Part shown: positions 5,499 through 11,043 of the stretch, piece after piece | How the letters are laid out: each line of letters opens with the position of its first letter | How positions within the stretch are numbered: the first letter of the stretch is position 1 | NCBI GenBank assembly: GCA_003133645.1 | Contig: PKYI01000104.1 | Location: 1-64,000 of the forward strand | DNA from: Acidobacteriota bacterium | GTDB lineage: Bacteria > Acidobacteriota > Thermoanaerobaculia > Thermoanaerobaculales > Thermoanaerobaculaceae | Direction: 5' to 3' | Length of the DNA: 64,000 nucleotides | Position numbers and translations under genes: made by a program | Notes under the pieces: model-generated | Databases searched by the model: none | What the model saw: only the letters and a program-made list of their open reading frames with translations | What the model was told of the DNA's origin: nothing

Positions 5499-5960
5499 CT
5501 ACTCGATCCGGAACGGGAAGCCGATGCTGCCCTTGCCCAGCGTGCACTCGAGCAGGTAGATCCCGGCCGGCAGCGGCTTGGTGAAGCGGACCTTGAACAT
5601 TGCCGTCTCGCCCTTCATCGGCCCGACCGTGATCGCGTCCGAGGCGGACGCCTTCGACGAGTCCTGCTCGTAGAAGCCGGCGCCGTGCTTGTAGGCGGTG
5701 AGGGCGTACGGCTTGTAGTCGCCGTAGAGGATGAGGTAGTCACCGGTGCGCACCGTCGCCGTCGGCTCGCCGTTGAAGTAGTTGAGGGCGAACCCCTCGG
5801 GGGTGAATTGCGTCTCTACGTTGACGGCGGAGAGCTCGACGAGCTTCTCGTTCTGGACGAGGAAGCCGCCCTTGTGGTCGGGCTTGATCTCCCGGTTGCA
5901 CGCCGCGACCGCCACACAAACGGCGGCCACCGCCACGAGGGTCAGGGGGTTCTTGCGCAT
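5499..5960 (-). CDS. Small lipoprotein of unknown function
   Basis: 153 residues. It starts MRKNPLTLVAVAAVCVAVAAC, a signal peptide ending in a lipobox (VAAC) with the acylated Cys at residue 21. A well-placed AAAGGAG lies six bases before the ATG. The mature part is beta-rich with no motif I recognise; YLILYGDYKPYALTAY and LECTLGKGSIGFPF stand out. It probably sits in the inner or outer membrane facing the periplasm. A longer in-frame reading exists upstream but has no signal peptide and was rejected. Confidence 0.75.
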   Translation of the reverse strand: MRKNPLTLVAVAAVCVAVAACNREIKPDHKGGFLVQNEKLVELSAVNVETQFTPEGFALNYFNGEPTATVRTGDYLILYGDYKPYALTAYKHGAGFYEQDSSKASASDAITVGPMKGETAMFKVRFTKPLPAGIYLLECTLGKGSIGFPFRIE

Positions 5961-6049
5961 GATCGGCTCCTTTGGCCTCCGAAAAACGTTGTCTGGCCCC
6001 AACAGGCCGAGTATACCAAGCAGCGCACCGCAGGCGGCCGGATCCGGGG

Positions 6050-8152
6050 TTACCAGACCGGGGCTTGGAGGAGCATCGCCTGCGTGGCCGCCCGGTCCAC
6101 CGGACGCGAGAACCAGAACCCCTGCGCATGCGAGCACCCGATCTCGCGCAGCCTTTCGAGCTGCACCGCGGTTTCCACCCCCTCGGCGACCACGCTGATG
6201 TTCAGCATGTTGGCCAGCGTCACGATCGTCTTCACGATCGCCGAGGCGTCACCCTTGGTGTCCATTCCGGAGATGAACGAACGGTCGATCTTGAGCGTGT
6301 CGTACGAGAAGCGCTGCAGGTACGAGAGCGACGAGTAGCCGGTACCGAAGTCGTCCACCGAGAACTGCACCCCAAGCTTGTGGAACTGCGCCAGCTTCTC
6401 GAGCGCGACCTCGCCGTGGTCCATGATCACGTTCTCGGTGATCTCCAGCCGCAGGGAAGTCGGCGGCAGGCCCGTCCTGTCGAGGATCGCCACCACCCGG
6501 TCGTACATGTCCGGCTGCATCACCACCTTGCCGGATACGTTGACGCTGACGTAGAGCGGCGGGTCGGCAGGGACGAGGTCCTGCCACTCGCGGGCGTGGA
6601 GGCACGATTGCTCCAGCACCCACCAGCCGATCGGCACGATGAGGCCGGTCTCCTCGGCCACCGCGATGAAGCGCGTGGGGCTCACCAGGCCACGTTCCGG
6701 GTGACACCACCGCACCAGCCCTTCGAACCCGACGATCCTCTTGTCCTCCAGCGACACGATCGGCTGGTAGTGCATCACGAACTGCTTCTTCTCCACCGCC
6801 TGCCGCAGCTCGGTCTCGAGCTTGAGCAGCGCCACCACGCTGCGGTGCATCGTCTGGTCGAACACCTGGTAACACCCACGCCCGGCCGCCTTGGCGCGGT
6901 ACATCGCGGTGTCGGCGTCGCGCAGGATCTCCTCCGGCGTCCCGTACCCCGGGTTGGAGAGCGCCACGCCGATGCTCGCCGAGGTGAACACCTCCCGGCC
7001 GCCGATCACCAGCTTCTCGCGGAACAGGTCCTGAATACGCTCGGCAATGCGCGTGGCGTCGCCCGGCCCGTGGATGTCGTTGAGCAGGATCGCGAACTCG
7101 TCCCCCCCGAGCCGGGCCACGGTGTCTCCAGGCCGGAGGAACTGGGTGAGCCGGCGGGCAAGCTCGACCAGCAACTCGTCGCCGACGGTGTGCCCGAGCG
7201 AGTCGTTGATGTTCTTGAAGCGGTCGAGGTCGATGAAAAGCAACGCCACGGTGGACGACTTCCGCCGTCGCGCCTGCTCCATCGCGAGGCCCAAGTGGTC
7301 GAGGAAGAGCGTGCGGTTGGGGAGCTGCGTCAGGGCGTCGAAGAGGGCGTCGTGGAGGAGTTGTTCCTCGGCGCGCTTGCGGGCGGTGATGTCGGTGAGC
7401 GAGCCTGCCATCCGCGTGGGCTTGCCGGCGGCATCGCGCACCGCCAGGCCGCGCGCGAGCATCCAGATCGCCACGGCGCTCTTCCCGATGATGCGGTGTT
7501 CGTGCTCGAAGTGCGGCTCGGTCCCCGCGAGGTGGGCGTCGAGCGCCTTGCGCAGCCCCGAGCTGTCGTCGGTGTGTACGCGCGAGAACCACTCCTCGAT
7601 CGAACTCCCGATCTCGTCCGCGCGGAACCCGAGCATCGTCTTCCAACGCGGCGAGAAGTACGCGCTTCCGGTCGTCAAGTTCCAGTCCCAGATCCCGTCG
7701 TTGGCGCCGTTGACCGCCAAGGCGTACCGCTCCTCGCTCTCCCACATCGCGCGCTCGACGTGCATGCGGGAGATCGCGTACCGGAGCGAGCGCAGCAGCA
7801 GTTCGTTGTCCACCTGGCGCTTGACGAGGTAGTCCTGCGCGCCCTCGCGCACCGCCGAGAGCGCCGTCTCCTCGTCGTCCAGGTTGGTGAGGATCACGAT
7901 CGGCACGTGCGGCGCCACCTTCCGCGCCTTTTCGAACGAGACGAGGCCGCTGGAATCCGGCAGCGAGAAGTCGAGCAGCACGACGTCCACGGGATCCGAG
8001 GCGAGGCGCGCCAGGCCGTCCGCCAGGCGGGAAACGTGATGCACGTGCAGCACCTCCCGGCGCGACTGGGCCAGCATCACCTGGATCAGTTCGGCCTCCT
8101 CGGGGCTATCCTCGATCAGGAGCACGTTCAGGGGCTTGGTCACGCCGTCCAT
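6050..8152 (-). CDS. REC-PAS-GGDEF-EAL cyclic-di-GMP signalling protein
   Basis: About 700 residues. Order: receiver domain (1-120) with phospho-acceptor Asp in VVLLDFSLPDSSGL and the conserved Lys in DYLVKRQ; PAS domain (about 150-265); GGDEF domain with the active motif RLGGDEFAILL and an RPGD inhibitory site five residues before GGDEF; EAL domain. The EAL signature reads EGL, and the other catalytic residues are present (LEITENVIMD, DDFGTGYSSL, KIDRSFI, VAEGVET, QGFWFSRP). It can therefore plausibly both make and break c-di-GMP. It starts four bases after the hybrid kinase upstream, so the kinase is the likely partner. Confidence 0.93.
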   Translation of the reverse strand: MDGVTKPLNVLLIEDSPEEAELIQVMLAQSRREVLHVHHVSRLADGLARLASDPVDVVLLDFSLPDSSGLVSFEKARKVAPHVPIVILTNLDDEETALSAVREGAQDYLVKRQVDNELLLRSLRYAISRMHVERAMWESEERYALAVNGANDGIWDWNLTTGSAYFSPRWKTMLGFRADEIGSSIEEWFSRVHTDDSSGLRKALDAHLAGTEPHFEHEHRIIGKSAVAIWMLARGLAVRDAAGKPTRMAGSLTDITARKRAEEQLLHDALFDALTQLPNRTLFLDHLGLAMEQARRRKSSTVALLFIDLDRFKNINDSLGHTVGDELLVELARRLTQFLRPGDTVARLGGDEFAILLNDIHGPGDATRIAERIQDLFREKLVIGGREVFTSASIGVALSNPGYGTPEEILRDADTAMYRAKAAGRGCYQVFDQTMHRSVVALLKLETELRQAVEKKQFVMHYQPIVSLEDKRIVGFEGLVRWCHPERGLVSPTRFIAVAEETGLIVPIGWWVLEQSCLHAREWQDLVPADPPLYVSVNVSGKVVMQPDMYDRVVAILDRTGLPPTSLRLEITENVIMDHGEVALEKLAQFHKLGVQFSVDDFGTGYSSLSYLQRFSYDTLKIDRSFISGMDTKGDASAIVKTIVTLANMLNISVVAEGVETAVQLERLREIGCSHAQGFWFSRPVDRAATQAMLLQAPVW

Positions 8153-8156
8153 CCCT

Positions 8157-9665
8157 TCAACCCTTCGCTTCCGGGGCCACCCCGCCGGACACCGGTTTGA
8201 GGACTCTCGGAATCGTGAAACAGAACGTCGAGCCGCGCCCGACCTCCGAAACGGCCCAAATCCTGCCGCCGTGCCGCTCGACGATCCGCTTGCAGATCGC
8301 CAGGCCGATCCCGGTGCCGGGGTACTCGGCGGCGGTGTGCAGCCGCTGGAACATCCCGAAGATGCGCTCAAGGTGCTCCGGGGAGATCCCGATCCCGTTG
8401 TCGGCCACCGCAAACGTGACGCGGTCGCTGTCCTCGACGGCGTAAATGCGCACGGCCGGTCGCTCCCGCCGGAACTTCAACGCGTTGCCGATCAGGTTCT
8501 GGAAGAGCTGCACCATCTGGGCGCCGTCAACTGCCAGCACCGGCAGCAAGTCCCAGCTGACCTGCGCCCCGCTCTCGTCGATCGCGGCCTTCAGGTTGGC
8601 GATCGCCTGCTGCACCAAATCGGCGAAATCGACCGGCTGGAACGGACGCCCCTGCGTGTCCACCCGCGAGTAGGCGAGGACGTCGTTGATCATCACCTGC
8701 ATCCGGTCCGCGCACTGGACCATGTTCGTGACGTACCGCTTGCTGTCGCCGCCCGCCGCGCCCGCGCCGTTGGAGGCGAGCAGGCGGGCGTACCGGCTGA
8801 TCAGCTGCAGCGGCTCCTGCAGGTCGTGCGAGATCACGTAGGCGAACTGCTGCAGGTCCACGTTCGAGCGCCCCAGCGCCGCCGCCCGCTCGGAGAGTTC
8901 GCGCTCGGCCTTGCGGTGCCCGGTGATGTCCTCCACCGCCCCCTCGAAGCGCACCACGCCCTGGGCGGGGTCCACCACCGGCCAGAGCGCCATCCGCACC
9001 CAGGCCAGGCCGCCGTCGGGGCGACGCACGCCGGCTTCGAGGTCGCGCAGCGTCCGGCCGCGGCTGAGGCTCGCCCGGACCTGCGCCTGCAGCGCCTCAT
9101 CCGAGAGGAACTCGGCGATGTTGCGGCCGACGAGCGCCTCCTCGCTCTCGACGCCGAGGATGCTCGCAAGGGCGTGGTTGGCGGCGGTCAGCCGTCCGTC
9201 GGCGACGGCGGAGAACGTGCCGAGCGCCAGTTCCTCGGTCAAGCGCCGGAACAGGGCGAGCCCTTCGCGCGAGGCGCGGTGCTCGGCGTTGCGCTCGATG
9301 ACCCGCCGCACCGCCGCCGGGAGTTCCACGAACCCGGCACTGCCCTTGACCACGTAGGCCGAAAGGCCGTGGCGGAGCCCGTGCGCCGCGACGGACTCGC
9401 TCCCCTCCGAGGCGAAGAACACCACGGGGCAGTCGGGGGCAAGGCTCTTGACCGTCTCCAGGACCTGCAACCCGTCGCCCCACTCCAGGCGGTACTCGGT
9501 CACCACCGCCGCGAACCCCCCGACCGGGAGGCGGTCCGCCAGCACCATCCCATCGGCGACCTCCTCGACCTCGACCTCGGGCAGCTCGCGGCGGAGCACG
9601 AGCGCAGCGAGGGCCCGGTCATCGCTGTTGCTGTCGACAAGCAGGATACGGGGGCGAGCGTTCAT
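8157..9665 (-). CDS. Sensor histidine kinase with N-terminal degenerate receiver (REC-PAS-HisKA-HATPase)
   Basis: 502 residues. The N-terminal fold is a receiver (about 1-120), but the usual acceptor Asp is Glu (AVVTEYRLEWGDGL) and the second acidic-pocket residue is Ser (LLVDSNSDD). A PAS domain (about 140-265) precedes HisKA with the phospho-accepting His in YVISHDLQEPLQLI. HATPase_c follows, with N (NLIGNALKF), G1 (VADNGIGIS), F (IFGMFQRLH) and G2 (GTGIGLAICK) boxes. No membrane segment is visible, so it is cytoplasmic. The Met start is chosen because MNARPRILLVD is a normal receiver start. It is followed at four bases by the GGDEF-EAL regulator. Confidence 0.92.
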   Translation of the reverse strand: MNARPRILLVDSNSDDRALAALVLRRELPEVEVEEVADGMVLADRLPVGGFAAVVTEYRLEWGDGLQVLETVKSLAPDCPVVFFASEGSESVAAHGLRHGLSAYVVKGSAGFVELPAAVRRVIERNAEHRASREGLALFRRLTEELALGTFSAVADGRLTAANHALASILGVESEEALVGRNIAEFLSDEALQAQVRASLSRGRTLRDLEAGVRRPDGGLAWVRMALWPVVDPAQGVVRFEGAVEDITGHRKAERELSERAAALGRSNVDLQQFAYVISHDLQEPLQLISRYARLLASNGAGAAGGDSKRYVTNMVQCADRMQVMINDVLAYSRVDTQGRPFQPVDFADLVQQAIANLKAAIDESGAQVSWDLLPVLAVDGAQMVQLFQNLIGNALKFRRERPAVRIYAVEDSDRVTFAVADNGIGISPEHLERIFGMFQRLHTAAEYPGTGIGLAICKRIVERHGGRIWAVSEVGRGSTFCFTIPRVLKPVSGGVAPEAKG

Positions 9666-9798
9666 CACGTGACGGATCGACTCGAAGAAGGCCGAAGACA
9701 GAGCACAATGGCATGTCCGCGGATGGTTCCCCACCGCTCTGGAGCGCCGCCGCGCTGACCCATGTCTCTCCAACCCCTCCTGAAGCGGTTTCAGCTTA

Positions 9799-11043
9799 TC
9801 ACGGACCCGGGTCCGCCGAGCACGCCATCACGACCGCGGCGAACACTTTGGCGTCGGCGATCAGGTTGTCGAGGAGGCAGTACTCGTCGGGCTGGTGCGC
9901 GCTCTCGTCGAGCTTGGAGTAGACCACCGCCGGCAGTCCGATGCGCCGGAAGATGGCGGCCACGGTCCCGCCCCCGATCCCCTGCGCCCGCGCGGTGACC
10001 CCGTGCACCTCGCGGACCGCCTGGACGACCAGCCGGACCACCTCGGCGTCAGGGCTGGTCGCCGGGGCCGCCTCGGCGCGCTGCACGTCTTCGAGCGCAA
10101 CCGTCACCCCGTGCGCCGCCTCGACCTCGTCGGCCAGGCGTCGGACCTCGGCCTCCACGTCCGCGAGCGGCACCCCGGGAAGCACACGAGAGTCGAGGTA
10201 GAACACGTCTTCGCCCGGGATCGTGTTGATGTTGGGGACGTTGGGCTCCTTCTTCGTGGGCTCGAAGGTGGAGACCGGGGGGTCGAACAGAGGGTCGTTC
10301 TGGGGAAACTTCTGTGCCAGGGACCCGAGGCGGGTCACGAGGTCCGACGCCGCGCGGAACGCGTTGACGCCCTGCGCCGGCGTCGAGGCGTGGCACTGCC
10401 GGCCGACGGTGCGCACCTTGAGCCACCAGATCGACTTCTCGGCGATCTCGACGAGCGAGCCCTCGGGGTTGCCGGCGTCCGGCACCAGGAACATGTCGCG
10501 CGGCCCGAACAGCCCGCGGTGGTGCACGGCCAGGTACTCGGCGCCGTACTCCGAGCCGTTCTCCTCGTCGGCGCAGAACATGAGCGCCAGGTCCACCGGC
10601 GGGCGGACGCCGCCCTCCAGCAGGGCGCGCGCCACCAGCAGGCTCGCGACGACCGCCTGCTGGTTGTCCTCGACGCCCCGCCCGACGAGCTTGCCGCCCT
10701 CGACGCGGAGTACGTACGGGTTGCCGGTCCACAGGCCCGCCTCGCCGGGGGGCACGACGTCGAGGTGCGACATGATCCACACCGTGCGCGCCGAGACCTC
10801 GCCCCGGATGCGGGCGACGAGGTTCGGCCGCACCCCGCCTTTGGCCGCTGGGTCGGGGGCGTCGAGGCGCGTCACCTCGTCGAACCCGAGCTTGTCGAGT
10901 TCGCCCTGCAGCCAGAGCGCCTTGTCGAGTTCGCCCTCGCCGCCGCTGGCGGGCGACACGGCGGGGATCGCCGTCAGGCCGCGCTGCAGCTCGACCGCCC
11001 ACCCCCGGTACCCTTCGATCCTGGTCAAAAACTCCTGGGTCAT
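9799..11043 (-). CDS. M20 family metallopeptidase (ArgE/DapE/CPG2-like)
   Basis: 414 residues; the start MTQEFLTRIEGY has GGGAGG seven bases upstream. Di-zinc ligands typical of M20 are all visible: MSHLDVVPPGE (His, Asp), GRGVEDNQQ (bridging Asp), CADEENGSEYG (catalytic Glu pair), VPDAGN (Asp) and a C-terminal SAHQPDEY (His). The central dimerisation lid domain runs about residues 200-310. It hydrolyses N-acyl amino acids or peptides; the exact substrate is not readable. No signal peptide, so it is cytosolic. It stands alone between the signalling operon and the phosphoesterase pair. Confidence 0.9.
   Translation of the reverse strand: MTQEFLTRIEGYRGWAVELQRGLTAIPAVSPASGGEGELDKALWLQGELDKLGFDEVTRLDAPDPAAKGGVRPNLVARIRGEVSARTVWIMSHLDVVPPGEAGLWTGNPYVLRVEGGKLVGRGVEDNQQAVVASLLVARALLEGGVRPPVDLALMFCADEENGSEYGAEYLAVHHRGLFGPRDMFLVPDAGNPEGSLVEIAEKSIWWLKVRTVGRQCHASTPAQGVNAFRAASDLVTRLGSLAQKFPQNDPLFDPPVSTFEPTKKEPNVPNINTIPGEDVFYLDSRVLPGVPLADVEAEVRRLADEVEAAHGVTVALEDVQRAEAAPATSPDAEVVRLVVQAVREVHGVTARAQGIGGGTVAAIFRRIGLPAVVYSKLDESAHQPDEYCLLDNLIADAKVFAAVVMACSADPGP

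Follow-up and report, generated by a model that had tools for sequence, protein, structure and literature searches.

The kinase gene, its partner and their orthologues

The window, i.e., the whole stretch of 64,000 nucleotides that was analysed, belongs to a draft genome (3.69 Mb, 216 contigs) and carries, on its minus strand, a gene for a receiver-bearing histidine kinase followed by the gene for a c-di-GMP regulator (Table 1). The two genes together make up one unit of c-di-GMP signalling. The kinase features an N-terminal receiver match (Response_reg, residues 7-109, 38.8 bits compared to the curated Pfam cut-off of 30.2), and all nine orthologues of the genus likewise start with ATG and are 502 aa long. 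Within the kinase core, the H box His, the N box and the G boxes are present (H280, D281, N390, N394, D422, Gly424, Gly426, Gly450, Gly452 and Gly454, invariant in 23/23 aligned rows), and the core is, as judged from these motifs, complete. In the AF2 model of the kinase (mean pLDDT 80.6, pTM 0.44), strands and helices of the receiver alternate in the (beta/alpha)5 order, with block means of the pLDDT between 85 and 94 for residues 11-120, and strand 3 ends at residue 56, directly before Glu57. Because of the low pTM, the arrangement of the domains in this model is untrustworthy.

The protein had been described in the earlier note as a hybrid kinase with a pseudo-receiver. The pseudo-receiver was confirmed, but the protein is not a classical hybrid kinase, since its receiver is located at the N-terminus and not at the C-terminus; deduced from its domain order, with the receiver preceding the DHp-CA core and a PAS domain in between, it is a Rec-controlled histidine kinase. 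A scan of positions 5900-9900 yielded 0 promoter-like sites, and 2 terminator-like sites compared to 1.7 in shuffled sequences.

Table 1. Features of the kinase gene and its partner gene, given in positions of the window.
Feature	Positions	Strand	Basis and remarks
Kinase gene	8157..9665	minus (read 9665..8157)	502 aa, REC-PAS-HisKA-HATPase; ATG at 9665, stop TGA 8159-8157
N-terminal pseudo-receiver, residues 7-109	9339..9647	minus	Pfam PF00072 and AF2 (beta/alpha)5 order
Ser12 (AGC), second acidic-pair position	9630..9632	minus	alignment; genus trait
Glu57 (GAG), phospho-acceptor Asp position	9495..9497	minus	alignment; Glu in 29/30 orthologues
Ala85, conserved Thr/Ser switch position	9411..9413	minus	alignment; genus trait, overlooked in the earlier note
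Lys107, pocket lysine kept	9345..9347	minus	alignment; slowest-evolving site of the receiver
Long helix, residues 109-145, extending receiver alpha5 towards the PAS domain	9231..9341	minus	AF2 prediction
PAS domain, about residues 138-250	8916..9254	minus	Pfam
HisKA 271-337 (His280 at 8828-8826) and HATPase_c 381-487	8205..8855	minus	Pfam
Partner gene, 700 aa, REC(Asp)-PAS-GGDEF-EAL	6050..8152	minus	Pfam; ATG 8152-8150, four bases past the kinase stop
Phospho-acceptor Asp of the partner receiver	7970..7972	minus	alignment

To trace the kinase, searches were run on 59 relatives and on genome samples of the order (37 genomes), the phylum (396), G424's phylum (295) and G425's phylum (398), as well as on genome contigs, where 216 stretches were confirmed and the best 80 of them taken. 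Among these best 80 of 216 stretches, orthologues with 71-96% identity originate from records titled Acidobacteria, Terriglobia and Thermoanaerobaculaceae. In total, 30 operon-type orthologues were obtained, one per genome, with whole-protein identities down to 35%. They comprise 9/9 genomes of the genus, 17 more of the same family and order, one of the same class (G351) and three outside records titled Nitrospirae (L071), Gammaproteobacteria (L040) and Thiotrichales (L056). Going by these record titles, behind which a contig mis-binned into a MAG may stand, kinases with Glu57 reach records filed under three phyla. Order-wide, 26 of the 37 genomes encode an operon-type orthologue. Matches at 1e-35 were found in 17/396 genomes of the phylum sample (six operon-type), while 7/295 genomes of G424's phylum (one operon-type) and 1/398 of G425's phylum matched; in these three samples 6 to 9 first-look candidates were scored per genome, and the counts may include misses. 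One kinase is interrupted by a frameshift (G032, counted among the 30 but kept outside the final tree), and another is distributed over two contigs (G027, also counted). One genome (G010, L021 / L042) encodes a kinase of 399 aa without a PAS domain, in which the Glu receiver is joined straight to the kinase core, the sole PAS-less row among the 23 aligned. L025 (G019) was considered as a natural fusion of kinase and partner and was rejected, as the kinase sequence is lost within the HATPase domain and reads on into the partner frame; this was taken for a frameshift that probably arose during sequencing or assembly.

A receiver-GGDEF gene lies next on the same strand in 30/30 operon-type loci, with its first possible start between about 60 bases before and 210 bases after the kinase stop. 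The EAL domain is seen in 25/30 partners, the remaining loci (L013, L015, L016, L017 and L025) ending before it, and two partners (G029 and G027) show no PAS match. The partner of the window carries a normal receiver, as had been noted earlier (E/D pair, D, T, K), together with an intact GGDEF motif and an EAL-type motif written EGL. Its acceptor Asp is kept in 30/30 loci. All 21 complete partner sequences possess the receiver quintet (E/D, Asp, Thr/Ser, Lys), the EAL Glu and DDFGTG, and 20/21 possess GGDEF; the EAL motif is spelled EGL in 17, EAL in three and ESL in one of them. An RxxD motif, a possible inhibitory site of cyclases, precedes GGDEF in 21/21 (RPGD; once RPSD). In the partner of the Nitrospirae record L071 (6500-8662), VSDEF replaces GGDEF, and its cyclase half may be inactive. 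Judged by their catalytic residues, the two receivers of the pair differ in that the kinase receiver is predicted to be without phosphorylation and the partner receiver to keep it.

The receiver pocket under selection

The catalytic quintet of the kinase receiver reads D11, S12, E57, A85 and K107, of which Asp11 and Lys107 are canonical. As claimed in the earlier note, Glu occupies the acceptor site (TEYRL) and Ser the acidic pair (VDSNSDD), with the Lys and the fold kept. Since the switch Thr/Ser is also lost (Ala85), the quintet departs from the canonical one at three of its five positions. The domain therefore lacks the canonical phosphorylatable signature (DD/ED pair, Asp, Thr/Ser, Lys) and represents a pseudo-receiver, or ALR, in the sense of a receiver match without the acceptor Asp. 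It is an exception in its own genome, where 61 of the 65 receiver matches have Asp at the acceptor site and Glu was found in the window kinase only. The other three non-Asp receivers have Gly, Thr and Met, the Met row being a fragment; by alignment, Gly and Thr belong to L243 (G000:C135:1600-1944) and L267 (G000:C160:16644-16985).

Among the 30 operon-type orthologues, Glu57 is present in 29, the exception being G021 (L014) with Asp (codon GAC). Both GAG and GAA are in use at this site, indicating that the DNA varies and Glu is left unchanged. In the 23-row alignment, D11, D16, W62, K107, L8 and G111 are invariant within the receiver, and Glu57 follows with 22/23. The window receiver contains 19 acidic residues, and only D11, D16 and E57 are kept in at least 15/16 rows outside the genus. 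Empirical Bayes rates from the same 23 rows place Glu57 as the seventh slowest of 121 receiver sites, and the slowest sites include the pocket residues K107, D11 and E57. Alignment with orthologues, suggested in the earlier note as a check, confirmed the conservation of Glu but not of Ser, which occurs in 9/9 genus members and L056, the site being Asp or Glu in 14/16 rows outside the genus. The 23-row alignment contains Ser12 in 7/7 genus rows, and its two remaining outside rows have Ser (L056) and Thr. Ala85 is limited to the nine genus rows and L056, with no further operon row of the tree set carrying it. The losses at positions 12 and 85 seem to go together, and their confinement to the genus and L056 indicates that they are younger than the old Glu.

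Within the genus, a simple Nei-Gojobori count, from which pairs with a dS outside 0.05-2 were dropped, gave median dN/dS values of 0.097 for HATPase, 0.116 for the receiver and 0.288 for PAS from 36 pairs each, of 0.184 for HisKA from 35 pairs and of 0.539 for a 12-residue linker from 25 usable pairs. By this measure, the receiver and the ATPase domain differ little. That the receiver is no longer needed and decays neutrally might be suspected from the three changed residues in the window protein and from the share of pseudo-receivers among database receiver domains, which amounts to several percent (PMC12632262). This explanation is contradicted by Glu in 29/30 genomes, by the rank of Glu57 among the slowest sites and by the low dN/dS of the receiver in the genus, and we consider it hardly credible. 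The conservation pattern instead shows that Glu57 is under selection.

In 16 of the 29 tree rows, Glu is the only departure from an otherwise canonical quintet; two have lost the second acidic residue in addition to Asp, ten have lost that residue and Thr/Ser, and one has Asp. A structural or docking role, in which the receiver would hold the kinase dimer together or serve as docking site for the partner receiver, with Glu simply stabilising a pocket that stays free of phosphate, would agree with the genus, where Thr/Ser85 and the second acidic residue are gone and the constraint on the domain is retained. It would also agree with the slower evolution of alpha5 (mean rate 0.84) compared to alpha4 (1.2, fast) and with the long helix predicted by AF2 towards the PAS domain. 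However, such a role would not obviously require strictly Glu, and 16/29 rows have changed nothing but Asp to Glu; as the sole function of the domain we regard it as unlikely.

Asp and Glu in the history of the receiver clade

The final tree comprises 50 receiver-PAS sequences and was calculated without the columns of positions 12, 57 and 85, after a frameshifted fragment (L201) and a sequence representing the wrong receiver (L195) had been dropped. A branch with a support of 99/98 separates the 29 operon-type rows from all others, and site 57 requires five changes on this tree. The Asp of G021 lies inside a fully supported trio whose other members have Glu, as obtained from an earlier tree still including L201 and L195. 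Nested among Glu sequences in this way, it is most simply explained as a reversion, and probably is one. An orthologue with Asp, the counter-evidence named in the earlier note, was hence encountered once, but within the Glu clade. The receiver concerned (L014) has an intact acidic pair, Thr and Lys, i.e., the full Asp quintet, and could be a working revertant; one lineage tolerates a phosphorylatable receiver, a point against the frozen-receiver reading given below.

Outside the operon clade, Asp prevails, with Glu in L179, L182 and L193 and Gly in L181, indicating that Asp was lost more than once in the receiver clade. In two genomes of one genus, another receiver-PAS-kinase-like protein has Glu in the one (L182, G236) and Asp in the other (L183, G198), an independent change. 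Glu was also observed at the acceptor site of a receiver-PAS-GGDEF-EAL protein (L179, G075) and a receiver-GGDEF protein (L193, G033) of the same receiver clade. Since only one independent pair is available, no statistical claim on a link between Glu and the operon is made.

The Asp-type relatives (Acidobacteriota and G424's phylum; e.g., L174, L184 and L188) share the receiver clade (TDYxL) followed by a PAS-profile match, and differ from the window kinase in having Asp at the site and, in several cases, a C-terminal receiver. They also differ in their neighborhood: a separate kinase of the same core class is encoded directly upstream in 8/16 Asp-type loci, in three of them with a single receiver gene between. 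None of the 13 operon-type loci with 1 kb or more of upstream sequence has such a kinase, three loci of one genus having a weaker kinase match (58-62 bits). Upstream kinases were scored with a model built from the operon-type cores and called from 120 bits upwards, a self-chosen threshold, with L195 left out and related genomes not being independent.

In a quick tree of kinase cores, in which L200 and L201 are operon-type rows despite being labelled otherwise, the operon-type cores are separated from those that the Asp-type proteins carry and are found together with eight stand-alone upstream kinases; this placement is partly circular, because the eight were picked by their score to the operon-type core model. 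The stand-alone kinases L181, L185, L187 and L202-L204 group with the Asp-type cores, and L182, despite its Glu57, with the Asp-type proteins' own cores. The sample consists of these loci, not of the wider kinase class, and the tree is taken as a lead only. As such, it suggests that the operon-type protein joined the receiver to the kind of kinase formerly phosphorylating it. A scenario that we consider possible, though somewhat doubtful, is a natural family of hard-wired Rec-kinases, in which a former substrate receiver was fused before its kinase and the exchange of Asp for Glu was then fixed, which would prevent phosphate theft and hold the activated geometry. Decay would have proceeded stepwise, with Glu first and the loss of the second acidic residue and Thr/Ser later, and G021 would have reverted and may have regained a switchable input.

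Known receiver-controlled kinases and a proposed mode of action

Among the closest known systems is LvrB, a Rec-controlled histidine kinase whose full-length structures have been solved; upon phosphorylation, its receiver dimer is rearranged, the following helices zip into a coiled coil and a catalytic domain is freed (PMC13269768). Its D56E variant is constitutively active and D56A shows basal activity, while S84A lowers the basal activity and prevents the response (PMC13269768). Both proteins combine an N-terminal receiver, a long helix and a DHp-CA core, and the spacing of acceptor, switch and aromatic residue is 28 and 19 in each (57-85-104 in the window kinase, 56-84-103 in LvrB). The natural Glu equals the laboratory change D56E, and the Glu relatives with an intact pocket would, given the identical spacing, resemble the state created by that change. 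The PAS-less kinase L021 even has the layout of LvrB. LvrB, as described in PMC13269768, differs from the window kinase in that its receiver can be phosphorylated on Asp, that a kinase (LvrA) acts upstream of it, that its Y-T switch is inverse and that a PAS domain is lacking, the last two of which make the analogy loose; in the window kinase, Glu is native and the switch Thr/Ser is gone in the genus. A Foldseek search with the kinase model placed LvrB chains at ranks 4, 9 and 10 with a TM-score of 0.28 to the query, low values by which the match concerns the domain order more than the arrangement.

Phosphomimicry by Glu, as proposed in the earlier note, gains plausibility from the constitutive activity of LvrB D56E and is less secure in the window protein itself. 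Ala85 matches Ser84 of LvrB by spacing, and as S84A leaves LvrB unresponsive and with reduced basal activity, Glu may not activate in the window's genus. Among ALR receivers, Glu is the commonest replacement of the acceptor Asp (26%), and in ChxR, a pseudo-receiver with Glu, a change to Asp or Ala left the activity not abolished (PMC4395418), which argues that a Glu replacement is not always activating. Like the ALR and PsR proteins described (PMC4395418, PMC12632262), the window kinase has lost the acceptor Asp and kept the first acidic residue and Lys, the second acidic residue being lost in its genus. Unlike these proteins in general, as presented in the two sources, it features a kinase input domain, a conserved operon with a c-di-GMP regulator and a nested Asp revertant among its orthologues. 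Rim15p of Ascomycota is likewise a kinase with Glu at the acceptor site of a pseudo-receiver, and its relatives outside Ascomycota mostly have true receivers; it differs in being fungal, in the C-terminal position of the pseudo-receiver and, by the description given, in not being a two-component histidine kinase (PMC12632262).

A further parallel is ShkA, which combines a pseudo-receiver within a histidine kinase with a link to c-di-GMP: binding of c-di-GMP to its pseudo-receiver, with Y338 as a binding residue, activates the kinase, and the authors suggested that domains of this type serve kinases as input modules (PMC7010744). By analogy with ShkA and CikA, the pseudo-receiver of the window kinase could be an input that binds a ligand or protein, with the partner's c-di-GMP feeding back on the kinase. 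The partner is, by its domains, a c-di-GMP enzyme, and the kinase receiver is strongly constrained (site rates, dN/dS). Placed by spacing from Y338 and not by a structural alignment, with Y338 falling on Tyr104, the residues R324, P342 and R344 of ShkA, reportedly also involved in binding c-di-GMP on the alpha4-beta5-alpha5 face, would correspond to Glu90, Gly108 and Ala110, and the aromatic alone matches. Moreover, outside the genus this aromatic varies (8 Y, 5 F, 2 V, 1 C), and the slow sites include the pocket residues, while alpha4 is fast. In addition, the pseudo-receiver of ShkA follows the kinase core and precedes a true receiver (PMC7010744), whereas that of the window kinase lies before the core. 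We consider a role in ligand input rather unlikely.

The reading we prefer, to which we give about even chances, is a Rec-controlled kinase whose receiver is frozen by Glu, with the PAS domain as input and the partner as recipient of the phosphate, complemented in the window's genus by the further loss of switch residues. The tethered receiver would be unable to accept phosphate from its own or any other kinase and would, for this reason, neither drain nor gate the phosphate flow. Fixed beside Lys107 and Asp11, Glu would hold the receiver in a single, activated-like state, which would, via the continuous alpha5 helix, keep the PAS-kinase dimer signalling-competent and leave the PAS domain as the sole variable input. 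The partner receiver would then take up phosphate from His280 on its Asp, and the c-di-GMP output would be set in this way, a step proposed from the gene order alone. In the window's genus, the receiver may best be seen as a locked, structural or dimerisation module rather than a strict phosphomimic, because Ala85 speaks for a switch that has ceased to function.

Neither the operon nor a natural family of Glu Rec-kinases was mentioned earlier in the titles and abstract openings among the matches listed. On sequence grounds, the kinase is regarded as a pseudo-receiver variant of Rec-controlled kinases that is real and under selection, not as a new type of system. How bacterial pseudo-receivers switch was called a mystery in a review of 2025 (PMC12632262), and the family described here offers a natural series within one kind of kinase with one kind of partner, from 16 members with Glu in a canonical pocket, through the two and the ten with further losses, to the one with Asp restored. 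Comparing members of this series would tell whether Glu serves as a phosphomimic, an insulator or a structural filler. The Glu-fixed receiver beside a c-di-GMP regulator with a normal receiver suggests a naturally hard-wired, testable switch.
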